Shown here: piece after piece, positions 43,018 to 64,000 of the stretch
How positions within the stretch are numbered: the first letter of the stretch is position 1
How the letters are laid out: every line of letters begins with the position of its first letter
Assembly (NCBI RefSeq): GCF_040412085.2
Contig: NZ_CP115921.1
Location: forward strand, 806,001 to 870,000
Direction of reading: 5' to 3'
DNA length: 64,000 nucleotides
Origin: Vibrio sp. CB1-14
GTDB taxonomy: Bacteria > Pseudomonadota > Gammaproteobacteria > Enterobacterales > Vibrionaceae
Notes under the pieces: generated by a model
Seen by the model: only the letters and a program-made list of their open reading frames with translations
Database searches by the model: none
Told to the model about the DNA's origin: nothing
Made by a program: the position numbers and the translations under genes

Positions 43018-44075
43018 TGAAAAAGTCAATTATTGCCATCGGTCTCGCATCGCTAGCGTTAACGGGTTGCTACTCGGATATCACCGTTCGTGAACGTGCC
43101 CCTTTGATGGTGGAGTCCATTGAGGTATCTAAGCCTGTAGAGCAGCAATATCGTGAGTTTAAAGGTCAAGTTGTGACTGCGGAGCAAACCAAGCTGTCAT
43201 TTCGCATTCAAGGTGAAATAGCCCATTTGCTTGTAAAACCGGGTCAATCGGTGAAGAAGGGTCAGGTTGTTGCCAAGCTGGATGATGAAAAACTTCAGCA
43301 GCAATATCGTGATGCTCTGGCTCAATATGAGCTGGCGACTAAGCAATTGCGTCGAGGTACGGAGCTTTACGCGCGTGACATGATTTCAAACTCTGAATTG
43401 GATGAGTTGACTTCAAACCGTCAACTAGCGAAAGCGCAGTACCAAAACATCCAACATCAAATTCAGTACACCAGTCTAAAAGCACCGTTTTCCGGTGTCG
43501 TGGCCGAAGTGAGCAAAGAGCGTTTTGAGAACGTTGGTCCAGGTGAAACTGTGGTGTCCATTTATCAGGATGACAAAGTCTATGTGAAGATCAGTCTTTC
43601 TGACCACATTCTAGCGTCTATTACCCCACAAGCTCAGCGCAATGCTTATCAGCCGCGTGCTTTTTTCTCTGGGGTTGAAGACAGTTTCATCATGTCTTAC
43701 CTGGAACATTCTAGCGAGCCTGATGCGCAAAGCCGAGCCTATGAATTGTGGCTGCAAATGCCTCAGCCAAAAGCAAAGATTTTGCCGGGAACCAGCGTGT
43801 CTGTTCATGTTGATATGGTGGCCGCTGGTTTGAGCACGATTCAAGGTTATCAACTGCCTATGACGGTGCTAGAAGCAGGCTTTGAGCCGCAACAGTTTTA
43901 CGTTTGGAAGCATGAAGATGGTGTAGCAATGAAAACACCCGTGCGTGTCGATCAGGTGAATAGCTTTGGCGTGATTGTCGATTCTGGCGTTGCTCAAGGT
44001 GATGTTCTAATTAGCTCAAGTTTGAGAAAGCTCAGAGATGGCGAAGCAGTAGCACTCATGGAGAACAATAAGTAA
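43017..44075 (+). CDS. RND efflux periplasmic adaptor, second
   Basis: A 352-residue membrane fusion lipoprotein (lipobox LTGC, Cys18). The lipoyl halves are IQGEIAHLLVKPGQSVKKGQVVAKLD and APFSGVVAEVSKERFENVGPGETVV, separated by a helical hairpin. It starts at GTG 43017 in a TAGTG overlap with the first adaptor and ends in TAATG with the pump gene. It probably forms mixed hexamers with the first adaptor. Confidence 0.88.
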   Translation: MKKSIIAIGLASLALTGCYSDITVRERAPLMVESIEVSKPVEQQYREFKGQVVTAEQTKLSFRIQGEIAHLLVKPGQSVKKGQVVAKLDDEKLQQQYRDALAQYELATKQLRRGTELYARDMISNSELDELTSNRQLAKAQYQNIQHQIQYTSLKAPFSGVVAEVSKERFENVGPGETVVSIYQDDKVYVKISLSDHILASITPQAQRNAYQPRAFFSGVEDSFIMSYLEHSSEPDAQSRAYELWLQMPQPKAKILPGTSVSVHVDMVAAGLSTIQGYQLPMTVLEAGFEPQQFYVWKHEDGVAMKTPVRVDQVNSFGVIVDSGVAQGDVLISSSLRKLRDGEAVALMENNK

Positions 44076-47000: not shown

Positions 47001-47131
47001 TGGTGTTTGATGCCTTCTTTGGATCAATGGCGATCACCATTATGGCGGGTCTAGGGTTTGCAACCGTGCTGACCTTGATTGTGGTGCCAGTTCTGTTTGC
47101 TATTTTCTTTAAGGTAAAACCGGCGAAATAA
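44075..47131 (+). CDS. RND efflux pump (AcrB-type, HAE1 branch)
   Basis: A 1018-residue inner-membrane drug/proton antiporter with 12 spans and two large periplasmic loops, full length. Proton-relay aspartate lies in GMLVDNAIVIVEGI in span 4. The N-terminus SIKNRVISWLFLVILAIGGIQSFNDLGRLEDPAFTIKDAMV and the late ILKNGIVLMDQINLELD are typical of the family. It needs a TolC-type channel, which is not encoded here. It is the last gene of the operon and is followed by a strong terminator. Confidence 0.93.
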   Translation: MSLTEYSIKNRVISWLFLVILAIGGIQSFNDLGRLEDPAFTIKDAMVISTYSGATSTEVEEELTYPLEKEIRKLPYIKNIKSTSSAGLSQIMVSMEMDYGPDELPQIWDEMRRKINDLRPNLPSGVNSIQIIDDFGDVFGVMIMLTGDGYDYVELKRYSDYLSRELELVDGVGKVSIAGDQKEMLFVELSLERLSALNLDMNTVMGLLNQQNSVQSAGEIMINGESLAIRPNGNLDSVESLENLIIHGRDTGNLIRLKDVAEISKGIQEKPSNVITFNGKPAINLAISFGAGVNVVEVGKALDAQLQALENIKPAGINLDYFYNQSAEVDKSVQDFVVSLAQAVGIVIVVLLFTMGMRSGIIIGAVLLLTVFGTFIMMSINNIELHRISLGALIIALGMLVDNAIVIVEGILVGLKQGQTKKQAAMSIAKQTQWPLLGATVIAITAFAPIGLSQDATGEFMGSLFWVLCYSLFLSWITALTLTPFLADILLKESDKNDQAADADPYKGVLFTVFRWSLELALKLRWLTVAGMIALLVSAVMAFGLVKQSFFPPSNTPMFFVDMWMPEGTDIRQTLKQTEQVEAYIQEQDNVEFVSSTVGQGLQRFMLTYQPEKSYEGFAQLQVRTTSRDNMFGLLNKLDAELSSQFAAPTFQLRLMEFGPSPASKIEARIIGPDPQVLRDIAVQVEDVLLADPGSRNVRHDWRERTKQLVPQFNESKARRLGISKEDLSSTLQLAFGGNTIGVFRDGTQMLPIVTRLTEAERVDYASLQNISIWSPMLQTYVPVEQVIDNVTLEWQEPIIQRRDRKRTLTVLADHDVLGDETAASLFARVKPQVESLPLPAGYTIEWGGEYESSKDAQEAMFKSLPMGYLLMFIITMLLFNSFKKPLVIWLTVPLSIIGVAFGLLVSNMPFSFTALLGLLSLSGMILKNGIVLMDQINLELDSGKDPYLALVDSAVSRVRPVSMAALTTILGMIPLVFDAFFGSMAITIMAGLGFATVLTLIVVPVLFAIFFKVKPAK

Positions 47132-47158
47132 CTGAAATTACAGTGAATATGATCAAAG

Positions 47159-47182
47159 GCCTGCATTTATTGCAGGCTTTTT
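47159..47182 (+). terminator. Terminator of the RND operon
   Basis: GCCTGCA (47159-47165) and TGCAGGC (47171-47177) form a 7-bp stem with loop TTTAT, then TTTTT. Confidence 0.92.
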
Positions 47183-47439
47183 GCGTTGTAGCGAGTGCAA
47201 AATTGAACCCGCTTCTCGTAATTTCGCCGCAATTTTGTGTTTTTTGCGGACGAGTTCGGTATTCATCGGCTTTAACGAGCGATTTGTAAGTTAATTTCGA
47301 AATCTTGATCAAATTTTCGCAAAATAATGACGTTATTTTGGAATACCAACCACATTTTTTGGCATGATCGTTTTGCCAAACGACCAAGATTAAACACAAT
47401 ATGGTCACGAATCATTCAGAACAGATGGAGAGACTTGAA
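47183..47439. other. AT-rich intergenic region with one inverted repeat
   Basis: TTTGGCA (47358-47364) and TGCCAAA (47374-47380) are 7-bp arms around a 9-nt spacer, about 60 bp before the small CxxC gene. They could be an operator or 5' RNA stem. I see no other feature. Confidence 0.35.
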
Positions 47440-47673
47440 ATGCCAACTAACTACTGCACCGCGTGCAAAAAGGATACGGCACACAAAGCAGTGATGCGAC
47501 GCAGCCACAACGATAACTCATCTATCGTTCAAAACTTCCAAATGTTGATGTCTCAACTGGTTAACGGCAGCGGCTACTACAAGCTAGAGCGACAGCTTTA
47601 TTGCCGTGTATGCAATAAGCAGAATCAACAAACAGTGAAGACTGTACTTAGCGGTCAAACGAATCTCGCATAA
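47440..47673 (+). CDS. Small double-CxxC zinc-ribbon-like protein (77 aa)
   Basis: A 77-residue protein (MPTNYCTACKKDTAHK...). Cysteine pairs CTAC at the N-terminus and CRVC near the C-terminus are spaced as in a zinc ribbon. A GGAGAG site lies about 8 nt before ATG 47440; the longer frame from 47401 lacks one. It is basic and soluble. The function is unknown; nucleic-acid or protein binding is plausible. Confidence 0.68.
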   Translation: MPTNYCTACKKDTAHKAVMRRSHNDNSSIVQNFQMLMSQLVNGSGYYKLERQLYCRVCNKQNQQTVKTVLSGQTNLA

Positions 47674-47795
47674 ATTAACACTGTAAACTGATATCGATTG
47701 ATGGCATTTGTCACAACTTTGTGATCTCACATCTTTTTACATGCATAACCTTTGATTTACAATCGTGGAGTATCCCGTTCACTTGAGTTAAATCA

Positions 47796-48281
47796 ATGGC
47801 TTCGCTTGCTTTAGATAAAATCGATTTAGAAATACTGCGCATACTTAGCCGCAAAGGTCGTATGCCAATAGTTGAGTTGGCTAAGCTGGTCAATTTGACG
47901 ACCTCCCCTTGCTCAGATCGCGTGAAACGTTTGGAAAAAGAAGGTTTCATTGTGGGTTATCACGCTGAACTCAACCCAGAGAAACTGGGGTTGGATGTTC
48001 AAGTGTTTATTCATATCCGTCTTGATCAGACGAGTTTCTCTATCTTTGAAAAATTTGCCAAGGCTGTCGAGTTGATGCCTGAAATCGAAGAGTGTTACTC
48101 ACTCTCTGGTGATTTCGATACCATGATTAAGGTGAGAACCAAAGATATGAAGTCTTATCAATCTTTCATGTCTACCAAACTGGGCACTTTGCCGGGTGTT
48201 ATACAAACCAGAAGTGAAGTCGTGATAGAAGAGCATAAAACTGGGTTTGGCGTGAATCCGGATCTTCTTGACACGCTGTAG
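47796..48281 (+). CDS. Lrp/AsnC-family regulator
   Basis: A 161-residue regulator of normal family length. N-terminal HTH (about residues 5-60) LDKIDLEILRILSRKGRMPIVELAKLVNLTTSPCSDRVKRLEKEG is followed by a RAM ligand-binding/oligomerisation domain (about 70-150) with the EIEECYSLSGDFDTMIKV motif. Members respond to amino acids. The neighbours do not show the target; PutAP-type and ethanolamine genes are far away. A hairpin follows. Confidence 0.88.
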   Translation: MASLALDKIDLEILRILSRKGRMPIVELAKLVNLTTSPCSDRVKRLEKEGFIVGYHAELNPEKLGLDVQVFIHIRLDQTSFSIFEKFAKAVELMPEIEECYSLSGDFDTMIKVRTKDMKSYQSFMSTKLGTLPGVIQTRSEVVIEEHKTGFGVNPDLLDTL

Positions 48282-48489: not shown

Positions 48490-48571
48490 ACTATCTTATA
48501 AACAATGAGTTGCTTCAGTGAATGTGGACAGTTGACTAAGTGTGTTGCGACGGTTGTTCGAGGAGTTCGCC

Positions 48572-51500
48572 ATGAGTATTGCTGCGTTATTGGGTCTAGT
48601 CGATTTGTCAGGAACGTTAGTTCTTGATTCAAATGGCAAAATTGTCTTGCTGCCAGAAGGTGCTGAAATGAGACCCGGTGATATAGAGCTGTCGCCGGAT
48701 AACTTGGTTCCTGATGTTGAACTGCGGGAAACACTATTTGCTCAGATTAATTCCCAAGCCGAAAACAGTGCTTCCGATTTAGAGGACTTCTCAGCCAACG
48801 ATCTCGATGCCGATGCGATTATCGCTCAAATTGAGGCCGGTGCTGATCCTACTCAAAATGAAGACCAAGCCACAGCAGCAGGTGGCTCATTAAGCTCCAG
48901 TATCACCGATGCTGCTACCGTCGAAGCAATTAATCCACAAGTCTTAGCCGCTACGTTTTTTGAAACCCTGGGCCTCAATAGACAAGACCTGACAGAAACA
49001 CAAACCAATGCACTGTTAGATATCGCAACGAACAGTGCGCCCGTCACTCTATTTGAAGCGCGAAACTATGATGAAGAGTCACAGGACAGTGATTTAGGGT
49101 TGACCTTTCCAACGGATACCGATGGTGATGCTCTAACCGTTGCAGTCACAGAGCTTCCTAAACTGGGGCAAGTGACGCTCGCAGATGGCACGCCGGTTAG
49201 TCTTGGGCAAACCCTGACTCAAGAGGAGTTTGAGAATCTACAGTTTGATGCGCCCCAAGAGTACACGTTTGGTGAAGATGCAGGCCAGTTTACTTATAGC
49301 GTTGATGATGGGCAGGGTCAGCCGGACTCCGTGCAAACGGGTGGTGTGTTACTAGAAATCAATCCAATCAATGACATACCGGTTATTGACGAAGTAGGGC
49401 AAGGTACCTTAGTTGAGAGTGGTAATCTTGACGATGGCCAAATTGTAGAAGGTGTGAATACGGCTTCCGGTAGCATTAGTGCCTCTGATAATGATACGGA
49501 TGCAGCGCTGACTTATGGCGTAGAAAACGATACCAATGAATACGGTCAGCTTAGAGTCGATCCCGAAACGGGCGACTGGGTATTTACTTTGGATAACAGC
49601 TCTTCTGCGACGCAAAGCTTAAAAGAAGGCGACTCAATAAACACCACATTTGAGGTAACCGTTACCGATGATAAAGGCGCGGTCACTACAGAAACACTAA
49701 CGCTTACCATTAATGGCACTAACGATTTACCGACATTTGATGCGGGTGGCGATGCTGCTGGGACTGTGACTGAGCAGGGAGATGGTATTGGCAGCGACAA
49801 CCTAGCCTCAGGTGCTTTGTCAGTAACCGATGTTGATGCGGATGCGATTCTCACATTTGAAATTGAGTCTGAACAAAATGACTTTGGCTCTTTCTCAGTG
49901 GATGAAAATGGTCAATGGCAGTTTGAACTCGACAATGAAGCTTCGGTGACTCAGGCGTTAAGTGAAGGTGAAACGGAAACCCTGAACTACACGGTTTCTG
50001 TTACCGATGAATTTGGCGCTCGTAGCGAGCAGGTTGTTACGATTACGGTAATCGGTACGAATGATACTCCGGAAATAAAGGATGGAAGGGGCACCAGCGG
50101 CGCTGTGAATGAGGCGGGTCATCGTGACGATGGCACACTGTTTCCAGGTAAGGTGTCTGATTTTGGCATCATACGAGCGGTGGACAATGATGGAACGCTT
50201 AGCTTTACCACTACGGACAAGAGTGACTATGGCGAATTTACCATAAACGCGTTGACCGGTGAGTGGCGCTTTACCTTAGACAATAACGCAGCGATTACTC
50301 AGTCTTTAAAAGAAGGTGAGACGGGTGAAGTTGTATTCAATATCAAAGTAGCTGATGAAGCGGGGGCGTTTGTCATGCAGCCCGTTACCATTGAAATCTT
50401 TGGTGCCAATGATCAACCTACAATATCTTCATCGAGCGACTTAGACGGCACCGTTATTGAGTCTGGAGACAACACAGAAGGTACGTCTTTTGCGTCCGGA
50501 ACTCTCGTCGGAGAGGATGTTGATGACGACACAACCTTCACCTTCTTTGTAGAAGATGGTGGCAGTGAGTACGGCCAGTTGGTGATGAAGCCAAATGGTG
50601 AATGGACGTTTGAGATTGATAATGACTCAGCCGCAACTCAAGCTCTAAATGCGGGAGACTCCGTAGACATTACCTACCCAGTTACCATCCGAGATGAGTT
50701 TGGCGCAATCAACAGCGAGGCATTGACGATTACTGTTGTCGGAACCAATGACTTACCGCAGATTATCAATGGTTCCTCCTCTGCACTGACCGAAGACTCA
50801 GGCACTGATGCTCTTGGTTACCTAGTGGCAACCGATACATTGGTGATTAGTGATAAAGATGCCGATGAGGAGACGTTTAACCCTGGGAACGCAGAACCAG
50901 TAGGTTCAACACTAGGCTCACTAACTATCGCGGCAGATGGTACTTGGACGTACTCAGTAGATAATTCATTAGCGGCGGTGCAAGCTCTGGATGTTGGCGA
51001 TCAGTTGGTTGAAGAATTTATCGTAACCTCTGCCGACGGCACTGCGCACACCATCGCTGTCACCATCAACGGTACCGAAGATGAAACCTTCATCACCGGT
51101 CCAACGGCAGATACGGTGAAAGAGGACAATGATGTAGATGCTGGTCTTCTCACTGCTGGCGATAATCTGTCGCTCACCATTACCGATAATGATGCTGGCG
51201 AGAATAAATTCAGTACCACCGTCACCAGTGTCGTTAACGACAATGGTCAGCTTCCGCTGGGCATCTTAACCATTACTGAAGATGGTGACTGGTCGTATCA
51301 AGTTTCCAATGCACTGCAAGAGCTCCAGTCCCTCGGTGACGGCGATACGCGCGTCGAGCGATTCACTGTTACCTCTATCGATGGTTCAAAAACCGAAACC
51401 ATTGAAGTCACGATTCAAGGTACCAACGACTTGCCTCTTATTGGCGGCAATGCTGTGGGCAGCGTTACCGAAGACTTTGAAGTACAAACGGGAGACCTTC

Positions 51501-54500
51501 TCAAAGACAATGGTCAGTTGACGATTTCTGATGCGGACACTGGCGAAGCCAAGTTCCAAATGGTCGTGACGCCAGTAGGAAGCGTTCTGGGTACGCTCAC
51601 CATCACCGAAACGGGTGCGTGGAACTACGAAGTTGATAATACCAATCCAACGGTTCAAGGATTAGGCGAGGGTGACTCACTCACCGAGACATTCCAAGTA
51701 TTGAGCGAAGACGGTACCCCGCAAAATATCGTCATTACCATCAATGGTGTTAACGATGTGCCGACTATCACCTCGGGCGATTCTGTTATCGCTCAAGAAG
51801 ACGTCTTGGTGGATGGCGACGGCAACATCGTCGCGACTAATACCCTTGTGATTTCCGATGATGATACGGGCGAAGAAGTGTTTAATGCTGGTACGGCAAC
51901 GCCGGTCGGCACAACGCTTGGCACCTTGACCATAGATGCAGCTGGCGTTTGGACTTATAAAGTCGATAACTCGCTACCGCAAATTCAAGCCCTTGATGTG
52001 GGTACCAGTCTAACGGAGTCGTTCACAGTGACATCCGCCGATGGCACTGAACATCAAATCGATGTCACGGTCAATGGCACCGAAGATCCGACCATCATCA
52101 GTAACTACCAGCCAGGCGCAGTGACTGAAGATACCGCCGGTATCCTCACCGATTCAGGCAGCCTGAGTATTGCCGACCTTGATGCGGGTGAAGCTCTATT
52201 CAACACCACCGTCACTAAGCTCAATAATGGTGATGGTCATTCGCCTCTAGGCAATCTCACTATTGATGCCAATGGTAACTGGACCTACACCGTCGATAAC
52301 TCCCTCACTGGCGTGCAAGAGCTGGGTGATGGTATTACTCGCGATGAAGTGTTCCAAGTGACTTCCATTGATGGTTCCGTGAGTCAAACCATAGTAGTGA
52401 CGATTACGGGTGTCGATGGCGCACCGTCGATCGTCAGCGGAGAATCGGGAGATGTCACCGAAGATGCCGTTGTAGCTCCTAGCGATACCTTAGTGGCCAC
52501 AGATAAGCTAGTGATTACCGATGAAGATGCCGGTGAGAACGTCTTTGATGCCGGTACCGCAACGCCAGTGGGCACCACGCTAGGTTCGCTCACTATCACG
52601 GCCGACGGCACTTGGACTTACACGCTGGATAACACACTCTCAGCCGTTCAGGCGTTGGATGATGGCGACAAAGTCATAGAAGAGTTCACCGTCACGTCTG
52701 CTGATGGCACCGAACACACGATTGCCGTCACCATTAACGGCACCGAAGATGAAACCTTCATCACCGGTCCAACGGCAGATACGGTGAAAGAGGACAATGA
52801 TGTAGATGCTGGTCTTCTCACTGCTGGCGATAATCTGTCGCTCACCATTACCGATAATGATGCTGGCGAGAATAAATTCAGTACCACCGTCACCAGTGTC
52901 GTTAACGACAATGGTCAGCTTCCGCTGGGCATCTTAACCATTACTGAAGATGGTGACTGGTCGTATCAAGTTTCCAATGCACTGCAAGAGCTCCAGTCCC
53001 TCGGTGACGGCGATACGCGCGTCGAGCGATTCACTGTTACCTCTATCGATGGTTCAAAAACCGAAACCATTGAAGTCACGATTCAAGGTACCAACGACTT
53101 GCCTCTTATTGGCGGCAATGCTGTGGGCAGCGTTACCGAAGACTTTGAAGTACAAACGGGAGACCTTCTCAAAGACAATGGTCAGTTGACGATTTCTGAT
53201 GCGGACACTGGCGAAGCCAAGTTCCAAACGGTCGTGACGCCAGTAGGAAGCGTTCTGGGTACGCTCACCATCACCGAAACGGGTGCGTGGAACTACGAAG
53301 TTGATAATACCAATCCAACGGTTCAAGGATTAGGCGAGGGTGACTCACTCACCGAGACATTCCAAGTATTGAGCGAAGACGGTACCCCGCAAAATATCGT
53401 CATTACCATCAATGGTGTTAACGATGTGCCGACTATCACCTCGGGCGATTCTGTTATCGCTCAAGAAGACGTCTTGGTGGATGGCGACGGCAACATCGTC
53501 GCGACTAATACCCTTGTGATTTCCGATGATGATACCGGCGAAGAGGTGTTTAATGCGGGCGCCGCAACGCCGGTCGGCACAACGCTTGGCACCTTGACCA
53601 TAGATGCAGCTGGCGTTTGGACTTATAAAGTCGATAACTCGCTACCGCAAATTCAAGCCCTTGATGTGGGTACCAGTCTAACGGAGTCGTTCACAGTGAC
53701 ATCCGCCGATGGCACTGAACATCAAATCGATGTCACGGTCAATGGCACCGAAGATCCGACCATCATCAGTAACTACCAGCCAGGCGCAGTGACTGAAGAT
53801 ACCGCCGGTATCCTCACCGATTCAGGCAGCCTGAGTATTGCCGACCTTGATGCGGGTGAAGCTCTATTCAACACCACCGTCACTAAGCTCAATAATGGTG
53901 ATGGTCATTCGCCTCTAGGCAATCTCACTATTGATGCCAATGGTAACTGGACCTACACCGTCGATAACTCCCTCACTGGCGTGCAAGAGCTGGGTGATGG
54001 TATTACTCGCGATGAAGTGTTCCAAGTGACTTCCATTGATGGTTCCGTGAGTCAAACCATAGTAGTGACGATTACGGGTGTCGATGGCGCGCCGTCGATC
54101 GTCAGCGGAGAATCGGGAGATGTCACCGAAGATGCCGTTGTAGCTCCTAGCGATACCTTAGTGGCCACAGATAAGCTAGTGATTACCGATGAAGATGCCG
54201 GTGAGAACGTCTTTGATGCCGGTACCGCAACGCCAGTGGGCACCACGCTAGGTTCGCTCACTATCACGGCCGACGGCACTTGGACTTACACGCTGGATAA
54301 CACACTCTCAGCCGTTCAGGCGTTGGATGATGGCGACAAAGTCATAGAAGAGTTCACCGTCACGTCTGCTGATGGCACCGAACACACGATTGCCGTCACC
54401 ATTAACGGCACCGAAGATGAAACCTTCATCACCGGTCCAACGACGGACACAGTGAAAGAAGACACCGATGTGGATGCTGGTCTTCTTATTGCTGGCGACA

Positions 54501-57500
54501 ATCTATCGCTCACTATTACGGATAACGATGCTGGCGAGAATAAATTCAGCACTACAGTCACTAGTGTCGCGAACGACAACGGTCAGCTTCCGCTTGGCAC
54601 CTTAACCATCACCGAAGATGGCGACTGGTCTTATCAAGTCTCCAACGCACTTCAGGAGATCCAATCTCTAGGTGACGGCGATACGCGCGTCGAGCGATTC
54701 ACTGTTACCTCTATCGATGGTTCAAAAACCGAAACCATTGAAGTCACGATTCAAGGTACCAACGACTTGCCTCTTATTGGCGGCAATGCTGTGGGCAGCG
54801 TTACCGAAGACTTTGAAGTACAAACGGGAGACCTTCTCAAAGACAATGGTCAGTTGACGATTTCTGATGCGGACACTGGCGAAGCCAAGTTCCAAACGGT
54901 CGTGACGCCAGTAGGAAGCGTTCTGGGTACGCTCACCATCACCGAAACGGGTGCGTGGAACTACGAAGTTGATAATACCAATCCAACGGTTCAAGGATTA
55001 GGCGAGGGTGACTCACTCACCGAGACATTCCAAGTATTGAGCGAAGACGGTACCCCGCAAAATATCGTCATTACCATCAATGGTGTTAACGATGTGCCGA
55101 CTATCACCTCGGGCGATTCTGTTATCGCTCAAGAAGACGTCTTGGTGGATGGCGACGGCAACATCGTCGCGACTAATACCCTTGTGATTTCCGATGATGA
55201 TACCGGCGAAGAGGTGTTTAATGCGGGCGCCGCAACGCCGGTCGGCACAACACTTGGCTCCTTAACCATCGATGCAGCTGGCGTATGGACTTATAAAGTC
55301 GATAACTCACTGCCGCAAATCCAAGCGCTGGATGTGGGTACCAGTCTAACGGAGTCGTTCACAGTGACATCCGCCGATGGCACTGAACATCAAATCGATG
55401 TCACAGTTAACGGCACTGAAGATCCAACCATTATCAGCAACTACCAACCAGGTGCGGTGACCGAAGATACGGCGGGTATCCTCACCGACTCAGGCAGTCT
55501 AACGATTACTGACCTTGATTCCGGTGAAGCCCTGTTCAACACCACCGTCACTAAGCTCAATAATGGTGATGGTCATTCGCCTCTAGGCAATCTCACTATT
55601 GATGCCAATGGTAACTGGACCTACACCGTCGATAACTCCCTCACTGGCGTGCAAGAGCTGGGTGATGGTATTACTCGCGATGAAGTGTTCCAAGTGACTT
55701 CCATTGATGGTTCCGTGAGTCAAACCATAGTAGTGACGATTACGGGTGTCGATGGCGCGCCGTCGATCGTCAGCGGAGAATCGGGAGATGTCACCGAAGA
55801 TGCCGTTGTAGCTCCTAGCGATACCTTAGTGGCCACAGATAAGCTAGTGATTACCGATGAAGATGCCGGTGAGAACGTCTTTGATGCCGGTACCGCAACG
55901 CCAGTGGGCACCACGCTAGGTTCGCTCACTATCACGGCCGACGGCACTTGGACTTACACGCTGGATAACACACTCTCAGCCGTTCAGGCGTTGGATGATG
56001 GCGACAAAGTCATAGAAGAGTTCACTATCACGTCTGCGGATGGCACCGAGCACACCATTGCTGTCACCATCAACGGCACCGAAGATGAAACCTTCATCAC
56101 CGGTCCAACGACAGATACGGTGAAAGAGGACAATGATGTAGATGCTGGTCTTCTCACTGCTGGCGATAATCTGTCGCTCACGATTACTGACAACGATGCT
56201 GGCGAGAATAAATTCAGTACCACCGTCACCAGTGTCGTTAACGACAATGGTCAGCTTCCGCTTGGTACCTTAACCATTACTGAAGATGGTGACTGGTCGT
56301 ATCAAGTTTCCAATGCACTGCAAGAGATCCAGTCCCTCGGCGACGGCGATACGCGCGTCGAGCGATTCACTGTTACCTCTATCGATGGCTCTAAAACCGA
56401 AACCATCGAAGTGACCATTCAAGGCACCAATGACCTGCCTGTTATAGATGGCGATGCAGTAGGCTTAGTTATTGAAGACATCAATGTTCAGCCTGGCGAC
56501 CTTCTTAAAGATAATGGTCAGCTTACTATTTCTGATGTGGATACAGGCGAAGCTAAGTTCCAAACCACTGTCACGCCAGTGACTGTAGGGGGCATCACAC
56601 CTATTGGTACTATCACCATTACAGCGACCGGTGCTTGGAGTTATGAAGTCGATAATACCGCCACTGAAGTTCAGCAACTTGGTGCGGGCGATACCAGAAC
56701 AGAGACTTTCCAAGTTCTCAGTGAAGATGGCACTCCTCACAATGTTGTCGTTACCATCAATGGCACCAATGACGCCCCTCAGATCGGCGGTCTGTCGTAT
56801 GTAGAACTTACTGAAGACCAAGCAACGCAAATAGATGCGAACGGCGATTTGAATTTCACATCACAGGCGACGATAAGTGATGTAGACCTTGGGGAGGGAG
56901 CTTTCGTTCCTGCTACCTTGACTGCAGCAGCTGGAAACTTTACCGACGGGGCGTTAACCATAGACTCTGCGGGTAATTGGACGTACAAAATTCCAAACGG
57001 CAGCGCTAATGTGCAAGGTTTGGCTGCGGGTGAGCGTGCAACTCAAACCTTTACCGTTGAAACCGACAATAACACCACACACACCATTACGGTCGATATC
57101 GTCGGTGTTAATGACGGTTCAGTGCTAATCAGTGACCCATCTGAATCTATAGGCAGCGTCACCGAAGATGACACCCAAGTCACACTGTCAGACAATGGCG
57201 TGCTGGAATTGTCTGATGTCGATGGTGCGAATGAAGAGGTCTTCAATACCAATCCGAATACCTTTACATCAACCAGTACCGTTGAAGGCGCTGCGGCAGA
57301 TCAAGCGCTTGGTACATTGACTATTACCACCAATGGAGCGTGGAATTACCAAATACCGAACGCCAATGTTGAGTATTTGGGGCAGGGTGAAACGGCAACT
57401 GAAACATTCACGGTCTTGTCTGAAGATGGCACTCCGCACACCATAACGGTTACCATTATTGGTACGAATGATGCACCAGTCATTGCGGGTACGAGTGATC

Positions 57501-60500
57501 CTGATGGAACCGTGGTGGAATCTGGACATGAAGATACAGGGGGTGTTGTCCTAGGTACGCCAAGTATCGAAGGCCAGATTGTAGCTAGCGATATCGACCT
57601 ACCCGATAACGACGTTTTGGATTACTCCGTAGCGAATGCCACCAACCCTTATGGCACCGCTTCAGTTGACCAAAATGGCGTGTGGAAATTTGAGCTAAAC
57701 AATGGTTCAGATGCTACCCAAGCACTAGAAGAAAATGAGACTGCTACTGTGACGTTTGATGTCGTGGTGACCGATGATCAGAACGCCACTGCAACCCAGC
57801 AGGTCACCATTACCATTCAGGGCACCAACGACAAACCGTACCTAACCTCCGGAGGGGTATTTGCCGATTCAGTCAAAGAATCTGGACTCAACGAAGCGGG
57901 CGATCAACGAGCTGACGGACAAATTAACGCTGATGATTATGATCTCGCGGATAATGCGCAGTTGAGCTATGCCTTTGATTCTAATGACAGCACGGCAACC
58001 AGCGTTGAAAATCAATACGGTACCTTTACCATCAACAGTGATGGTTCATGGTCGTTTGAACTGGATAACACAAAACCTGCCACCCAAGCACTAAGAGCTG
58101 GAGAGTCGACAACGGTAGATATTGATGCCTTCATAATCGATGACCGAGATGCCTACATTAGCCAAACTCTCACGGTGACCATCAATGGTACCAATGATCA
58201 GCCAACGATCTCTGGTACCAATACTGGTGATGTGGTTGAAGACAGAAATGTCACGCGAGAAAATGGTGTTCGTTATATCACCAGTGAAGGGTCACTTCGT
58301 GTCGATGACGTTGATACCGGAGAGAGCATCTTCAACACTACCGTTGAACCAGTCGGTTCCCCTCTCGGTACTTTAACTATTGATGCTCTTGGTGACTGGG
58401 ATTATCAAGTGAACACTCGCGAGAGCGCGATTCAGCGCCTTGGTGTGGATGAAACCATGGAAGAGTCGTTCCGTGTTTACTCTGTTGATGGCACGTCCTT
58501 TGAAACCATCACTATCACGATTACTGGTACTAATGATCGTCCCAATATCCGTGGTAGGAGCTCCGACTCTATTACTGAGAATGTCGAAGGAGATGATAGC
58601 GAAGTTAAAGCAACTGGCGATCTCAACCCAAGAGATGCGGATGCGACTGATGTGCATACCTGGTCTGTCGTTGGCAGTTCAGACGGACAGTATGGCTCGT
58701 TCTCAATCAATGCCTCTACAGGCACTTGGGAGTACATTCTCGATAACGACAAAGCCGATTCGTTGCAAAAAGATGAGCTCGTTACGGAGACCTTTACGGT
58801 TCTTGTCGACGATGGCAACGGCGGTACTCGCACCAAAGACGTTACGATCAATATTACTGGTACCAATGATGCGTTGGTATTGACGGGTGATGATAGCGCG
58901 ACAGTCGTTGAAGACCTCAACATTACCGAAGATGGTGTCATTGACGTTAGCGATCTCGATACTTTGGACACGTTTGAGTTTGAAGTGTTGAATCCCGTTG
59001 GTGTGCTTGGCGATTTAACTATCGATCAGAATGGTAAGTGGACTTACACGCTTGTTCCAAATCGTGCGGAGCATTTAGAGGATAACGTTACCTATCCAGC
59101 GGATTCTCAATTTGGTGAGCAAATATTCCAGGTCAGTGTCACAGATGGTACGGCAACTAAGGTGTTCGAAGTCAGCATTGACGTTATTGGTACCAATGAC
59201 GCTCCAGACATTGATGGTGTGCGTACTGGCGTACTGTATGAAGTGAATGGGTATGGTCAAACCGTTGGCGCTGACTTAGGCGCGAACGATCCGGATCTCA
59301 ATGAAACTGAAGCGTGGCAGATTAACGACACCAATGCGGGTGTAGGTACCTATGGTACTTTGACGCTGAATCCAACGACCGGTGAGTGGGAGTATACGCT
59401 GGGCGTGAGTGATGGCCAAAAAGCCTCTGTAGATGCCCTTGCTCACGACAGTGTCGTTACTGAAACATTCTCAGTGAGCGTCACCGACAAATACAACGCG
59501 GTGAGCACCAAAACCATCACTATTACGGTTAACGGCGACAACGATCGTCCAGTGATTGGCGGAACCTTAGCCGGTGAAGTGACGGAAGATGTACATCCTG
59601 ATGATAACCCTGCCAACCCAATCACCACATCGGGTACGCTGACGGATGGCGATGTCGATATTGGTGACGACCATACTTGGTCAATTAATTCGACCAAAGG
59701 GCAGTACGGTAATATCTCCATCGACCCACAATCTGGCGAGTGGGTGTATACCCTCAACAATAACAACCCGACCGTTCAGGGGTTGAAAGGTGTCGATAGT
59801 GAAACGCTAACCGACACCTTTACCGTTACAGTGAAAGACGATTCAGGTCAAAGTGATAACACTGCAACTCAAACCATCACTGTCACGATCAAAGGCACCA
59901 ATGATACGCCGGATGTTAAAGGCGACACTTCTGGTAGCGTGATCGAAGCGACCAATGCTCGCTCAAGTGCCACTGGTGCGCTTACTGTCAGCGACATCGA
60001 TACCACTGACTCTCATACCTGGACAGTCGAGAACGAAGATCAAGCGACAGGCCAAGCAAGCGGCACCTACGGTTATATGTCGGTTGATGACAATGGTCGA
60101 TGGACGTATCAGTTGCAAAGTGACTGGGATGCCACCCGCGAGATTCCACCGGGTGAAAGCCGTGTCGACAGTTTCGAAGTCATTGTCACTGACGAAGGAG
60201 GGCTGACTGACACCATTACCGTTAACGTCACCATTGCCGGTACCAATACCGATCCAGAAATCTCAGTGCAGCCGAGCTACACCGTTATTGAAGATGGTGC
60301 CAACCTAAGTGGTACCGTCATCGCAGGTGTGCCAACTCAAGGTCAGCTCGATAGCAACGTGATTGGCGGCGGTGATCCTGATCTCAATGAAGTAGTGACT
60401 TGGAGCGTTTTGGACGGCGGTCAATACGGTACATTTAGTATCGATGAAGCGTCGGGCACGTGGCAGTATGTACTTAACAATAACGCTCTGGCCGTGGATT

Positions 60501-63500
60501 CACTTGATAAGGGTGACACGCTGGAAGACACCGTGCGTATTCGAGTGCTGGACAAGTTTGGTCATGAGTCGATTCAAGATATCACCATTAATATCGTTGG
60601 TGAAAATGACGTGCCGAACATACGTGGTGCTCAAACTCGTACAATCTCAGAAGATACAATCGAGGCAGGGAATTATACCGCTACCGGTCAGTTAAATCCT
60701 GGCGATGTTGATGCTGATGATTTCCATCTATGGGAGATATCAGATTCTAACGGTGGTCGTGGTGAATATGGGTCACTGATACTGTCGTCTGATGGTCAGT
60801 GGACATTTACTTATGATCAAGCGGACAAGTTAGATGATATTAAAGCATTAAAGCCTGGAGAGCGGGTGACGGACACCTTCGAGGTGACGGTGACTGACAG
60901 TCATGATGCAACGTCCACCGAGCTTGTGACGATTCGAATTGAAGGTCAAAACGATGCTCCGACTGTAAGTGGAGATATCACAGGCACTTATGTTGAAGAC
61001 AATGGTACCGATGACCCATCAGACGATCTGACGCCGTTAACGGGGCGCGCGATACTGTCAGATGTTGATAATGATGACTTTGCGGAATTTGTTATTGCAG
61101 ATGGTCAAACAGAGAATGTCTATTCAGGTCTTTATGGCGATCTATCAATCGATAAAGATGGCAATTGGCAGTTCACACCGAAAAACGATGTGATTCAGTC
61201 GTTGAATGAGGATGAGGTGAAGCAAGAAGTCTTTACCGTTATCGCTCAGGATCAAAATGGGGCCACTATTACTCAGGATATTACGATCTCGATAGAAGGG
61301 CGAAATGATGTTCCGGTAATAACCGGTGAATCAACGGGTACGGTCGTAGAGGACGGTACGGCCGACATCTATGGGGTTGATTTGACGCGTACTGACGGAC
61401 AATTAGTCGCCAGCGATGTCGATAATGAAAGCTCTATTAGTGGATGGTCTATCGAGACTTCCGGAGTGGGTACCTATGGCACGTTAACGGTCGATAATAA
61501 TGGCAAGTGGACCTATGTCATCGACAACTCTTTGCCTGCCACACAAGCTTTGATCTCTGGTGAAACTGTTCAGGAAACGTTTTATGTTGTGGCGACAGAT
61601 AACGACGGAGGCATATCTAATCGCCAAGAGGTCGTGATCGATGTTGTCGGTCAGCGCGATCCAGGTGACGGTTCTGGAGGTGGCGGCATTATTCCAGTGG
61701 ATATCTCGGAATTAGAGGTAACTGAGGATGGTCAACTTATTGATGGCGACTCTTACATATTTGATGTCCCTGAGGCAGCTCGCTTTGTACCGGTTAACGG
61801 TGGAATCTATGGGCAGCTGGTGAGAACGCCAGACGGCAACTGGCAGTATGAGCTTGATAATGATTCACTCCTTGTTCAAGGTCTGGATGAGGGAGAAACC
61901 GCGACAGAGAATTGGCGTATTATTCTTGGCCCGTTCTACATTAATGTTGATGTGACCATCAATGGTACAGCGGATAAGCCTGAGATTACTTACAGTTCAG
62001 ACACAACGAGTCCACAAGATGACACCATTTTCTTAGGTGAAGCCTTTGAGGACGTAACGGACTCAATTTCGGGTGTGTTGGGCGTTGATGACGCAGATCT
62101 TGGTGATACCCATGTGTGGGTAGTAGAGAACGGTCAAGGCAGCTATGGTACGTTAACGGTTGACTCAGAAACAGGTGAATGGACATATGTGTTAGACCCA
62201 TCCGTAGAACTGCCTGCGGGTGAAGAAGTCTTTGACACCTTCTTTGTAACGGTAACAGACACCGATCCTAACGAAGATCTAAGTACAGCCTCTGATAGAC
62301 GCGAGGTGAAAGTTAAGATTGTCGGTTCGGCTGAAGATGTTGTTGTGGAAGACAAAATCGTAGTTGAAACCGTTACAGCGAATGAAGATAACGATGACCC
62401 GAATGAGCTCGGCACTGGCGATTCTGCAATAACGATTACATCTGCGGATGCAGGAGGGCCTCTTGCACTTGATCCTGATCTTGGCTTGGGTGACCAAATC
62501 ACCTGGACCTTGATTGACGGAAGTGGTACATATGGAAATATCACAGTGAATCAAGATGGTTCCTGGGTCTTTACGCTTGATAATGACAGCCAAGCAGTAC
62601 AATCACTCCAAGAGGGGCAGACTCGCCAGGATGTCTTCGAGGTCTATGCCGTTGACCAATATGGCAAAACCATTGTGGATGAAAACGGGCTACCTCAGAC
62701 CTTAGAGATTGTAGTCAACGTCAATGGTCAAAACGACGCGCCAACGCTGCAAGCGAACGTTGAAGAAACCATAGTGGCGGACGACCCTGATCAAACCATT
62801 TCTGGTCAGCTGTCGGTGTCTGACGTCGATACTCAAGATCAGAATCTTCATACTTGGGCTGCGACACCAACGAGCGTAGAAAATGACTACGGCACGCTTC
62901 AATTTAATAGCGACGGCTCATGGACTTACGTGGTCAATCCAAACAATGCGGATATCATTGCGCTTGGTGCCAATGAGTCAATCCCACAAACCTGGCAAGT
63001 CACGGTTACAGATCCATCTGGTCTAACCGATACCCAAACGCTCACGATCAACATCCGTGGTGAAAACCAAGCGCCGACAATGGTGACTCAAGATGGCGAA
63101 GTGACGGAAGATGATACCAACGGCTCGGGTAGTATTTCTGTTACCAAAGCGATTGTCCTTGATGATGTTGATACCAACGATACGGTGACACTGGCTGCAG
63201 CGGATCTCAATGGCACTTATGGCCAATTTGTCGTCGACCCAACAACCAATACTTGGACGTACGAACTTTATAATGATGAGCCGCATGTTCAAGCTTTGGC
63301 CGACGGGGTGAAAGTAGTTGAATCATTCACGGTGCGCGCAACAGACAGCTTTGGTGCAGAGGTGACACAAACCGTTGAAGTCACCATTACCGGCACCAAT
63401 GACAGGCCAAGTGTTTCTGGCGCGGCAACAGGTTCCGTGAGCGATAACTTAGGCAGCACCGCCAGCGGTAAAGTCACCGTCGCCGATGTGGATATTGGCG

Positions 63501-64000
63501 ATGGCCATACTTTCGACGTCAAACAAGACACCGACTTAGGCACATTCACCATCGATAATACAGGCAAGTGGACGTTTGTTGTCGATGAGGAAAATGCAGA
63601 AATTAACGCTTTGGCCAAAGGTCAAACTAAGACGGTTCAGGTAAGCGTGATTGCTACTGATGATTCCAATGTCAGCGCAACGGAAGAGTCGAACGAGCAC
63701 TTCATTACTATTACCATTGTTGGTACCAATGATGCGCCTCAAATTGTGGATATCGGTCAGCAGATGGCCACAGAAAACACCAATACTCAGCTATCTGGAA
63801 CGTTTGATGATGGTGATGTGGATACGGTGAATATTGCCGATGACCATCTTTGGGAAGTCGTCTCTGGTGACCCGCGTGGTGACTTGAGTGCTGACCCTAC
63901 AACGGGGGCGTGGACGTTTGATCTTACCGGCGATTTTGAATACTTGTCTGAAGGTGAAACGCTACCGGCACCATTGACTTATGAGGTCAAAGTGACGGAT
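48572..64000 (+). CDS. Giant VCBS-repeat adhesin with LapA/BapA-type N-terminus (3' end outside window)
   Basis: One frame stays open from ATG 48572 (GAGGAG 7 nt upstream) to the last base: 5143 codons, no stop seen; frame checked at several points. Residues 1 to about 120 look like the retention module of type I-secreted adhesins (DLSGTLVLDSNGKIVLLPEG, then TAAG at 101-104). Residues about 150-270 form one cadherin-like domain. Then come about 40 VCBS domains of 105-120 residues, most ending in GTND-like turns after a VT(V/I)NG strand. Residues 835-2502 are three near-identical five-domain units. A glycine-rich linker (GDGSGGGG) lies near residue 4365. The protein is acidic and probably calcium-stiffened, serving surface attachment or biofilm. 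RTX repeats and a secretion signal would be expected beyond the window. Confidence 0.92.
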   Translation, partial: MSIAALLGLVDLSGTLVLDSNGKIVLLPEGAEMRPGDIELSPDNLVPDVELRETLFAQINSQAENSASDLEDFSANDLDADAIIAQIEAGADPTQNEDQATAAGGSLSSSITDAATVEAINPQVLAATFFETLGLNRQDLTETQTNALLDIATNSAPVTLFEARNYDEESQDSDLGLTFPTDTDGDALTVAVTELPKLGQVTLADGTPVSLGQTLTQEEFENLQFDAPQEYTFGEDAGQFTYSVDDGQGQPDSVQTGGVLLEINPINDIPVIDEVGQGTLVESGNLDDGQIVEGVNTASGSISASDNDTDAALTYGVENDTNEYGQLRVDPETGDWVFTLDNSSSATQSLKEGDSINTTFEVTVTDDKGAVTTETLTLTINGTNDLPTFDAGGDAAGTVTEQGDGIGSDNLASGALSVTDVDADAILTFEIESEQNDFGSFSVDENGQWQFELDNEASVTQALSEGETETLNYTVSVTDEFGARSEQVVTITVIGTNDTPEIKDGRGTSGAVNEAGHRDDGTLFPGKVSDFGIIRAVDNDGTLSFTTTDKSDYGEFTINALTGEWRFTLDNNAAITQSLKEGETGEVVFNIKVADEAGAFVMQPVTIEIFGANDQPTISSSSDLDGTVIESGDNTEGTSFASGTLVGEDVDDDTTFTFFVEDGGSEYGQLVMKPNGEWTFEIDNDSAATQALNAGDSVDITYPVTIRDEFGAINSEALTITVVGTNDLPQIINGSSSALTEDSGTDALGYLVATDTLVISDKDADEETFNPGNAEPVGSTLGSLTIAADGTWTYSVDNSLAAVQALDVGDQLVEEFIVTSADGTAHTIAVTINGTEDETFITGPTADTVKEDNDVDAGLLTAGDNLSLTITDNDAGENKFSTTVTSVVNDNGQLPLGILTITEDGDWSYQVSNALQELQSLGDGDTRVERFTVTSIDGSKTETIEVTIQGTNDLPLIGGNAVGSVTEDFEVQTGDLLKDNGQLTISDADTGEAKFQMVVTPVGSVLGTLTITETGAWNYEVDNTNPTVQGLGEGDSLTETFQVLSEDGTPQNIVITINGVNDVPTITSGDSVIAQEDVLVDGDGNIVATNTLVISDDDTGEEVFNAGTATPVGTTLGTLTIDAAGVWTYKVDNSLPQIQALDVGTSLTESFTVTSADGTEHQIDVTVNGTEDPTIISNYQPGAVTEDTAGILTDSGSLSIADLDAGEALFNTTVTKLNNGDGHSPLGNLTIDANGNWTYTVDNSLTGVQELGDGITRDEVFQVTSIDGSVSQTIVVTITGVDGAPSIVSGESGDVTEDAVVAPSDTLVATDKLVITDEDAGENVFDAGTATPVGTTLGSLTITADGTWTYTLDNTLSAVQALDDGDKVIEEFTVTSADGTEHTIAVTINGTEDETFITGPTADTVKEDNDVDAGLLTAGDNLSLTITDNDAGENKFSTTVTSVVNDNGQLPLGILTITEDGDWSYQVSNALQELQSLGDGDTRVERFTVTSIDGSKTETIEVTIQGTNDLPLIGGNAVGSVTEDFEVQTGDLLKDNGQLTISDADTGEAKFQTVVTPVGSVLGTLTITETGAWNYEVDNTNPTVQGLGEGDSLTETFQVLSEDGTPQNIVITINGVNDVPTITSGDSVIAQEDVLVDGDGNIVATNTLVISDDDTGEEVFNAGAATPVGTTLGTLTIDAAGVWTYKVDNSLPQIQALDVGTSLTESFTVTSADGTEHQIDVTVNGTEDPTIISNYQPGAVTEDTAGILTDSGSLSIADLDAGEALFNTTVTKLNNGDGHSPLGNLTIDANGNWTYTVDNSLTGVQELGDGITRDEVFQVTSIDGSVSQTIVVTITGVDGAPSIVSGESGDVTEDAVVAPSDTLVATDKLVITDEDAGENVFDAGTATPVGTTLGSLTITADGTWTYTLDNTLSAVQALDDGDKVIEEFTVTSADGTEHTIAVTINGTEDETFITGPTTDTVKEDTDVDAGLLIAGDNLSLTITDNDAGENKFSTTVTSVANDNGQLPLGTLTITEDGDWSYQVSNALQEIQSLGDGDTRVERFTVTSIDGSKTETIEVTIQGTNDLPLIGGNAVGSVTEDFEVQTGDLLKDNGQLTISDADTGEAKFQTVVTPVGSVLGTLTITETGAWNYEVDNTNPTVQGLGEGDSLTETFQVLSEDGTPQNIVITINGVNDVPTITSGDSVIAQEDVLVDGDGNIVATNTLVISDDDTGEEVFNAGAATPVGTTLGSLTIDAAGVWTYKVDNSLPQIQALDVGTSLTESFTVTSADGTEHQIDVTVNGTEDPTIISNYQPGAVTEDTAGILTDSGSLTITDLDSGEALFNTTVTKLNNGDGHSPLGNLTIDANGNWTYTVDNSLTGVQELGDGITRDEVFQVTSIDGSVSQTIVVTITGVDGAPSIVSGESGDVTEDAVVAPSDTLVATDKLVITDEDAGENVFDAGTATPVGTTLGSLTITADGTWTYTLDNTLSAVQALDDGDKVIEEFTITSADGTEHTIAVTINGTEDETFITGPTTDTVKEDNDVDAGLLTAGDNLSLTITDNDAGENKFSTTVTSVVNDNGQLPLGTLTITEDGDWSYQVSNALQEIQSLGDGDTRVERFTVTSIDGSKTETIEVTIQGTNDLPVIDGDAVGLVIEDINVQPGDLLKDNGQLTISDVDTGEAKFQTTVTPVTVGGITPIGTITITATGAWSYEVDNTATEVQQLGAGDTRTETFQVLSEDGTPHNVVVTINGTNDAPQIGGLSYVELTEDQATQIDANGDLNFTSQATISDVDLGEGAFVPATLTAAAGNFTDGALTIDSAGNWTYKIPNGSANVQGLAAGERATQTFTVETDNNTTHTITVDIVGVNDGSVLISDPSESIGSVTEDDTQVTLSDNGVLELSDVDGANEEVFNTNPNTFTSTSTVEGAAADQALGTLTITTNGAWNYQIPNANVEYLGQGETATETFTVLSEDGTPHTITVTIIGTNDAPVIAGTSDPDGTVVESGHEDTGGVVLGTPSIEGQIVASDIDLPDNDVLDYSVANATNPYGTASVDQNGVWKFELNNGSDATQALEENETATVTFDVVVTDDQNATATQQVTITIQGTNDKPYLTSGGVFADSVKESGLNEAGDQRADGQINADDYDLADNAQLSYAFDSNDSTATSVENQYGTFTINSDGSWSFELDNTKPATQALRAGESTTVDIDAFIIDDRDAYISQTLTVTINGTNDQPTISGTNTGDVVEDRNVTRENGVRYITSEGSLRVDDVDTGESIFNTTVEPVGSPLGTLTIDALGDWDYQVNTRESAIQRLGVDETMEESFRVYSVDGTSFETITITITGTNDRPNIRGRSSDSITENVEGDDSEVKATGDLNPRDADATDVHTWSVVGSSDGQYGSFSINASTGTWEYILDNDKADSLQKDELVTETFTVLVDDGNGGTRTKDVTINITGTNDALVLTGDDSATVVEDLNITEDGVIDVSDLDTLDTFEFEVLNPVGVLGDLTIDQNGKWTYTLVPNRAEHLEDNVTYPADSQFGEQIFQVSVTDGTATKVFEVSIDVIGTNDAPDIDGVRTGVLYEVNGYGQTVGADLGANDPDLNETEAWQINDTNAGVGTYGTLTLNPTTGEWEYTLGVSDGQKASVDALAHDSVVTETFSVSVTDKYNAVSTKTITITVNGDNDRPVIGGTLAGEVTEDVHPDDNPANPITTSGTLTDGDVDIGDDHTWSINSTKGQYGNISIDPQSGEWVYTLNNNNPTVQGLKGVDSETLTDTFTVTVKDDSGQSDNTATQTITVTIKGTNDTPDVKGDTSGSVIEATNARSSATGALTVSDIDTTDSHTWTVENEDQATGQASGTYGYMSVDDNGRWTYQLQSDWDATREIPPGESRVDSFEVIVTDEGGLTDTITVNVTIAGTNTDPEISVQPSYTVIEDGANLSGTVIAGVPTQGQLDSNVIGGGDPDLNEVVTWSVLDGGQYGTFSIDEASGTWQYVLNNNALAVDSLDKGDTLEDTVRIRVLDKFGHESIQDITINIVGENDVPNIRGAQTRTISEDTIEAGNYTATGQLNPGDVDADDFHLWEISDSNGGRGEYGSLILSSDGQWTFTYDQADKLDDIKALKPGERVTDTFEVTVTDSHDATSTELVTIRIEGQNDAPTVSGDITGTYVEDNGTDDPSDDLTPLTGRAILSDVDNDDFAEFVIADGQTENVYSGLYGDLSIDKDGNWQFTPKNDVIQSLNEDEVKQEVFTVIAQDQNGATITQDITISIEGRNDVPVITGESTGTVVEDGTADIYGVDLTRTDGQLVASDVDNESSISGWSIETSGVGTYGTLTVDNNGKWTYVIDNSLPATQALISGETVQETFYVVATDNDGGISNRQEVVIDVVGQRDPGDGSGGGGIIPVDISELEVTEDGQLIDGDSYIFDVPEAARFVPVNGGIYGQLVRTPDGNWQYELDNDSLLVQGLDEGETATENWRIILGPFYINVDVTINGTADKPEITYSSDTTSPQDDTIFLGEAFEDVTDSISGVLGVDDADLGDTHVWVVENGQGSYGTLTVDSETGEWTYVLDPSVELPAGEEVFDTFFVTVTDTDPNEDLSTASDRREVKVKIVGSAEDVVVEDKIVVETVTANEDNDDPNELGTGDSAITITSADAGGPLALDPDLGLGDQITWTLIDGSGTYGNITVNQDGSWVFTLDNDSQAVQSLQEGQTRQDVFEVYAVDQYGKTIVDENGLPQTLEIVVNVNGQNDAPTLQANVEETIVADDPDQTISGQLSVSDVDTQDQNLHTWAATPTSVENDYGTLQFNSDGSWTYVVNPNNADIIALGANESIPQTWQVTVTDPSGLTDTQTLTINIRGENQAPTMVTQDGEVTEDDTNGSGSISVTKAIVLDDVDTNDTVTLAAADLNGTYGQFVVDPTTNTWTYELYNDEPHVQALADGVKVVESFTVRATDSFGAEVTQTVEVTITGTNDRPSVSGAATGSVSDNLGSTASGKVTVADVDIGDGHTFDVKQDTDLGTFTIDNTGKWTFVVDEENAEINALAKGQTKTVQVSVIATDDSNVSATEESNEHFITITIVGTNDAPQIVDIGQQMATENTNTQLSGTFDDGDVDTVNIADDHLWEVVSGDPRGDLSADPTTGAWTFDLTGDFEYLSEGETLPAPLTYEVKVTD
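48872..48883 (+). other. TAAG motif, putative LapG cleavage site in the adhesin
   Basis: Codons 101-104 encode Thr-Ala-Ala-Gly, inside ATAAGGSLSS and preceded by IEAGADPTQ. In Pseudomonas fluorescens LapA the periplasmic protease LapG cuts between the two alanines of a TAAG motif near residue 108. Both motif and position correspond. Function here is inferred. Confidence 0.7.
51074..52741 (+). repeat. 1668-bp tandem unit 1 in the adhesin gene
   Basis: A unit of 556 codons holding five VCBS domains (ending NDLP, NDVP, TEDP, VDGAP and TEDE turns). It is nearly identical to unit 2; differences seen include one ATG/ACG change at 51550 and a small cluster at about 51870-51900. Confidence 0.9.
52742..54409 (+). 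repeat. 1668-bp tandem unit 2 in the adhesin gene
   Basis: Second copy in the same frame. It has the same five-domain order, with long tracts identical to both units 1 and 3. Confidence 0.9.
54410..56077 (+). repeat. 1668-bp tandem unit 3 in the adhesin gene
   Basis: Third copy. About 54440-54670 and 55250-55520 differ from unit 2 by many mostly synonymous changes. The tracts 54672-55247 and roughly 55520-56020 are essentially identical to it. The alternation points to recombination between units. Confidence 0.88.
56078..56400 (+). repeat. Partial fourth unit
   Basis: Only the first domain of the unit recurs at high DNA identity. From about 56400 the sequence departs, and only protein-level VCBS similarity continues. 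Confidence 0.75.

Follow-up and report, generated by a model that had tools for sequence, protein, structure and literature searches.

A probable giant VCBS-repeat adhesin of Vibrio sp. CB1-14 with a predicted LapG cleavage site

Introduction

In Pseudomonas fluorescens, the adhesin LapA carries a retention module and a di-alanine site within a [T/A/P]AAG motif, and is accompanied by LapD, LapG and LapEBC (PMC13090378, in the part of its text available to us); the same text describes LapG substrates as having a targeting helix, a DP pair and a scissile di-alanine in [T/A/P]AAG. In Vibrio cholerae, LapG cleaves FrhA (at PAAG) and CraA (at AAAG) in a calcium-dependent manner (PMC6890996, available part), and in V. 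fischeri the cleavage of LapV by LapG promotes dispersal (PMC12186489, available part, whose reference list includes a title that names LapV as a VCBS-containing adhesin under LapG). Since giant adhesins under LapG control, the VCBS type included, have thus already been published, the gene described here adds a member to a known kind of system; the member itself is new.

This gene, adh1, begins in a stretch of 64,000 nucleotides of the Vibrio sp. CB1-14 genome (the window; C2:806001-870000; the genome is 5.54 Mb in three contigs). An earlier note on the window had proposed that the LapA/LapG mechanism applies to adh1. At the level of sequence, this proposal is supported by the LapG, LapD, LapB and LapC proteins of the genome and by the layout of the N-terminus. 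We consider it highly probable that adh1 is a VCBS-type giant, likely a surface adhesin, which is predicted to be exported by the Lap system, anchored by its N-terminal module, and released by LapG when c-di-GMP falls.

Compared with the described systems, adh1 resembles LapV, as LapV is described, in being a likely VCBS-type giant adhesin from a genome with LapD and LapG. The likeness to V. cholerae lies in the use of one LapG for two giants (here predicted for adh1 and a second gene, adh2) and in the gene order lapC-lapG-lapD-lapB, which is the same here and in VCA1080-1084 (PMC6890996, available part). The cut motifs differ, however (PAAG in FrhA and AAAG in CraA, but TAAG in adh1), and so do the domains: FrhA has Calx-beta and cadherin domains and CraA has T1SS-143 repeats, whereas adh1 has VCBS repeats; moreover, the V. 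cholerae lap operon is without an adhesin, while in the present genome 2.6 kb separate adh2 from that operon. With P. fluorescens LapA, adh1 shares the di-alanine site, the set of Lap proteins and, putatively, the retention module, but its match to the NCBIfam retention_LapA model (NF033682) reaches 36.7 bits, below the curated cut-off of 50, and the LapE-like gene is on a separate contig.

Results and Discussion

The adh1 coding sequence is on the forward strand, running from 48572 to the end of the window at 64000 and onward to window coordinate 67195 (C2:854572-873195), and encodes 6,207 aa with a calculated mass of 649.8 kDa, a pI of 4.05 and no cysteine. The frame is open from the ATG at 48572 to the window end, over the 5,143 residues given in the earlier note; the VCBS repeats that the note saw in them are present, but they do not extend over the entire length, since the first ~160 residues form the module described below. 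The VCBS model TIGR01965 matches 40 stretches in residues 1-4809 and 10 in residues 4837-6207. A GAGGAG that is likely the ribosome-binding site can be read directly at 48560..48565 (forward strand), 6 nt 5′ of the ATG. The expectation of RTX nonapeptides beyond 64000 was borne out (PF00353, 27.4 bits; nonapeptides at residues 6072 and 6081). When the last 400 residues of the three giant proteins of this genome were compared, adh1 was 38% identical to adh2 over 128 residues and 36% identical to adh3 over 66; the similarity to the adh2 C-terminus suggests that adh1 ends in a type I secretion signal. The closest named relatives by adh1 are V. maritimus and V. variabilis (in a search that may omit the window's own records): residues 1-160 are 94% identical in V. 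maritimus JCM 19240 and 89% in V. variabilis CAIM 1454. No report on a V. maritimus adhesin was found by title in the open-licence literature.

Scanning upstream of adh1 gave two promoter-like sites (3.8 expected) and two terminator-like sites (1.2 expected), on which we base no claim. The 14-mer VpsR-type site of PMC6890996, allowing up to three mismatches, occurs 10 times in the window against an expected 9.85, with none in the region just 5′ of adh1; as this count is about the expectation, we make no claim of a VpsR site.

Residues 1-160 of adh1 (48572..49051, forward strand) form a retention-like module with the cleavage region, as indicated by the NF033682 match, by relatives across Vibrio and by a profile match to the solved fragment 5ix9. 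Within it, on the same strand, three short predicted strands (residues 14-40, 48611..48691) may constitute the retention core, followed by a predicted targeting helix (residues 77-88, 48800..48835), the DP pair (residues 92-93, 48845..48850) and, as the earlier note had it, TAAG at residues 101-104 (48872..48883), where LapG is predicted to cut between Ala102 and Ala103. Thus adh1 has the elements of a LapG substrate in the published order, and the layout is as in the available part of PMC13090378. The only other match to [TPA]AA[GV] in adh1 is an AAAG at residue 2785, within the stalk. Given the composition of the protein, [TPA]AAG is expected by chance 0.68 times in the whole of adh1 and 0.009 times in residues 60-140; the presence of TAAG is therefore weak evidence in itself, and its position and conservation carry the weight.

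An AlphaFold2 model of the module, built from 53 modules, has modest confidence (mean pLDDT 62.7, pTM 0.26; 73-83 in the blocks of residues 11-40) and places strands at residues 14-18, 24-28 and 38-40, helices at 3-7, 49-61, 77-88 and 142-154, and an unstructured segment at about 105-141. The modelling that had been suggested for the N-terminus thus gave the strands, the helix and an unstructured cleavage segment, but no match to a solved fold: Foldseek returned 0 matches at E ≤ 0.001, the low-confidence model being too weak for fold matching, and a PDB sequence search with the single adh1 module gave matches at chance level only. The profile of the family of 53 modules, on the other hand, matched 5ix9 (‘Antifreeze protein’), presumably from the N-terminal part of the ice-binding adhesin of Marinomonas primoryensis. 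The match spans the helix, DPT and AAG of the adh1 module and aligns the DPT and AAG motifs, although its E-value is only 0.0021 and the module model did not retrieve 5ix9 by fold. None of these comparisons assigned the N-terminus to a different kind of domain.

With residues 1-160 of adh1 as the query, modules were matched in 124 of 148 genomes of the genus (its own genome included). The 71 modules that we examined comprise 30 returned loci (adh1 itself included), 40 further listed places and adh2; they are part of the listed matches, mostly from the top of the list, and not a random sample. Their median pairwise identity is only 40%, and still AAG follows DPT in every one (TAAG in 53, PAAG in 16 and AAAG in two), a count that is partly circular as the query itself contains the motif. 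The invariant columns include D92, P93, T94, A102, A103, G104 and S109, while the nearby positions 106, 107 and 113 rank with the most variable. In a separate MAFFT alignment of 53 rows, A103 does not vary; A102 and G104 are almost invariant. Because the motif is so constant among the fetched modules, dependence on LapG may be predictable from sequence.

The earlier note would have given way had LapG or LapD been missing; the genome has one homologue of each. The note had looked for lapD, lapG and lapEBC-like genes near adh1. LapG, LapD, LapB and LapC are indeed encoded together, in one operon on the reverse strand (C2:777127-783284; HlyD/LapC, 463 aa; LapG, 236 aa; LapD, 636 aa; LapB, 704 aa), although 73 kb from adh1, and the LapE-like TolC (382 bits) is on contig C1, adjoining an OmpA-domain protein. 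LapG is the sole PF06035 protein of the genome (51.7 bits, cut-off 27); aligned with the solved homologues 4u65 and 4fgo, its Cys117, His152 and Asp169 are the C-H-D residues, and its score in the NCBIfam LapG equivalog model is 221.7 bits, below the cut-off of 320. LapD is the sole LapD_MoxY_N protein (PF16448, 128.7 bits) and matches 6pwj, which we take to be V. cholerae LapD, with 682 bits over the cytoplasmic part; in the NCBIfam LapD equivalog model it scores 284.3 bits, below the cut-off of 1020. Its Trp126, the LapG-docking tryptophan, aligns with the GW of 3pjv. Since its motifs are degenerate (STDEF for GGDEF, and HREVF at the EAL region), LapD is likely a receptor rather than an enzyme. 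LapB scores 972 bits in TIGR03375, with a weak, below cut-off match to Peptidase_C39 (Pfam) at its N-terminus, and LapC is an HlyD adaptor. An IS110-family transposase gene (L005:13942-14970; C2:785942-786970) lies about 2.7 kb past lapC.

Modules and LapG also occur together across the genus: a PF06035 match is found in 123 of the 124 module-bearing genomes, as against 9 of the 24 genomes without a module (four genomes that the module search left unlisted, G128, G131, G142 and G143, were identified by elimination). The only module-bearing genome without a LapG match, G053, is 65% complete. The Fisher p-value of this association, 1.5e-13, is overstated, as the genomes share ancestry. An adh1 match of at least 50% identity occurs in 10 genomes; in seven of these, adh1 and lapG share a contig and are 23-86 kb apart, and in the remaining three they are on different contigs of draft assemblies. 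One genome without a module match (G014) has three PF06035 matches, on C1 and C2, each containing one TAG.

By analogy with P. fluorescens and V. cholerae, adh1 would be exported through LapB and LapC together with the LapE-like TolC channel encoded on C1, and its N-terminal module, left in the periplasm, would plug this channel and so retain the protein at the outer membrane. At high c-di-GMP, LapD would hold LapG; at low c-di-GMP it would let go, and LapG would then cut between Ala102 and Ala103, so that the rest of adh1 leaves the cell. If so, the biofilm-release switch already described extends to a further clade of Vibrio.

The same contig encodes two further giants. The gene adh2 (C2:761588-774517; 4,309 aa) has Calx-beta, cadherin-like and RTX domains and a retention-like module with PAAG, which, like that of adh1, is below the cut-off of 50 in NF033682 (37.3 bits). 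Two genes stand in the 2.6 kb between the end of adh2 and the lap operon, and adh2 is likely shed by the same LapG. The third, adh3 (C2:1393924-1403139; L097:3924-13139; 3,071 aa), combines T1SS-143 repeats with a T1SS_VCA0849 C-terminus and has its own ABC, HlyD, TolC and OmpA genes next to it. It matches in 28 genomes, and the AAG is missing at the N-terminus in all 20 fetched members (the copy of this genome included), unlike CraA, which has T1SS-143 repeats together with AAAG (PMC6890996, available part). In a profile comparison, the adh3 N-terminus was related to the module with a probability of 36%, over 58 columns; as this kinship is weak, that adh3 stays permanently on the cell is our guess. 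The genome therefore offers a contrast between two giants with a cut site and one without, all three ending in RTX repeats. Two genes upstream of adh3, on the opposite strand, is a gene for an HD-domain protein carrying an SBP_bac_3 sensor region (L097:2-2497, reverse strand; 832 aa within the stretch), possibly related to c-di-GMP.

The position of adh2, so much nearer to the lap operon than adh1 (2.6 kb vs 73 kb), would suit an arrangement in which LapG serves adh2 only, the TAAG of adh1 is unused, and adh1 either remains attached to the cell or leaves it in some other way; the dispersal of early V. fischeri biofilms, too, is largely independent of lapG (PMC12186489, available part). We consider this unlikely. 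The adh1 site retains DPT and AAG, as do all the fetched modules, and the LapG of V. cholerae cleaves two distinct adhesins, both encoded outside its operon (PMC6890996, available part).

The stalk of adh1 may be labelled differently as well. The BapA/Bap/LapF model NF045619 gives residues 1-4809 of adh1 180.8 bits, just above its cut-off of 180 (its best stretch spans positions 101-206 out of 458, and the C-terminal part of adh1 scores 30.8 bits), so that a Bap-like label for the stalk is also possible. Could adh1 then be an adhesin of the Bap/BapA type that is not released in a regulated way, and whose resemblance to LapA at the N-terminus is shared by type I secreted giants in general? Its sub-threshold NF033682 score would agree with this, as would the absence of the AAG from adh3, which is likewise a giant secreted by a type I system; but adh1 has the complete layout of helix, DP and TAAG, and its module co-occurs with LapG, and we hold such an adhesin to be very improbable. 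Regulated release of adh1 by LapG remains our preferred reading.

The stalk includes three cassettes of 556 aa (residues 740-2407; 50789..55792, forward strand), whose copies have nucleotide identities of 0.90-0.96, followed by a partial fourth (55793..56400, forward strand, end approximate; successive 200-nt windows are 1.0, 0.90 and 0.89 identical to cassette 3, then at most 0.74). The cassettes were detected by scripts only; Tandem Repeats Finder, with a longest period of 500 bases, gave 0 rows. A relative (G044) has six full 556-aa cassettes in a protein of 8,003 aa, and another (G052; 6,489 aa) has instead a unit of 241 aa repeated about ten times. Nucleotide identities between cassettes are 0.84-1.00 within G044 and 0.79-0.85 between G044 and the genome studied here; copies are thus more alike within than between genomes, with slightly overlapping ranges, which fits duplication or homogenisation of cassettes within each lineage. 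The last 300 residues of adh1 are 97% identical in G044 and 94% in G052, while residues 41-80, which precede the cut site, belong to the least conserved blocks (0.60 and 0.55, respectively). No report on cassette copy number in VCBS giant adhesins of Vibrio was found in the open-licence literature, searched by title and the start of the abstract.

A wider picture, conceivable but on balance doubtful in this full form, is one of two releasable giants and one permanent one: on a drop in c-di-GMP, one LapG would shed both adh1 (at TAAG) and adh2 (at PAAG), while adh3, with its own exporter and no cut site, would stay, so that the surface is re-profiled rather than stripped; independently, the length of the adh1 stalk would be set by recombination among cassettes, with anchor, cut site and distal end unchanged. 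As the cassettes differ among relatives, one could test whether adhesion is tuned by the length of the stalk under an unchanged release mechanism.

Directly downstream of adh1 lies a catabolic cluster of the sialic-acid type (L002:4259-14461), with genes for two NANM proteins, an RpiR regulator, a DHDPS-family lyase, DctPQM, a ROK kinase and an amidohydrolase. We reject a functional link of adh1 to these genes, which their position might suggest, as extremely improbable, since the linkage is not conserved: they were found in none of the four downstream stretches of relatives (7-13 kb each), whereas the RND pump and AsnC regulator genes upstream of adh1 are kept in six of seven stretches, the seventh having 1.7 kb to the contig end. 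In the window, this upstream region (41944-48281) encodes two HlyD-like proteins, the RND pump and the Lrp/AsnC regulator.
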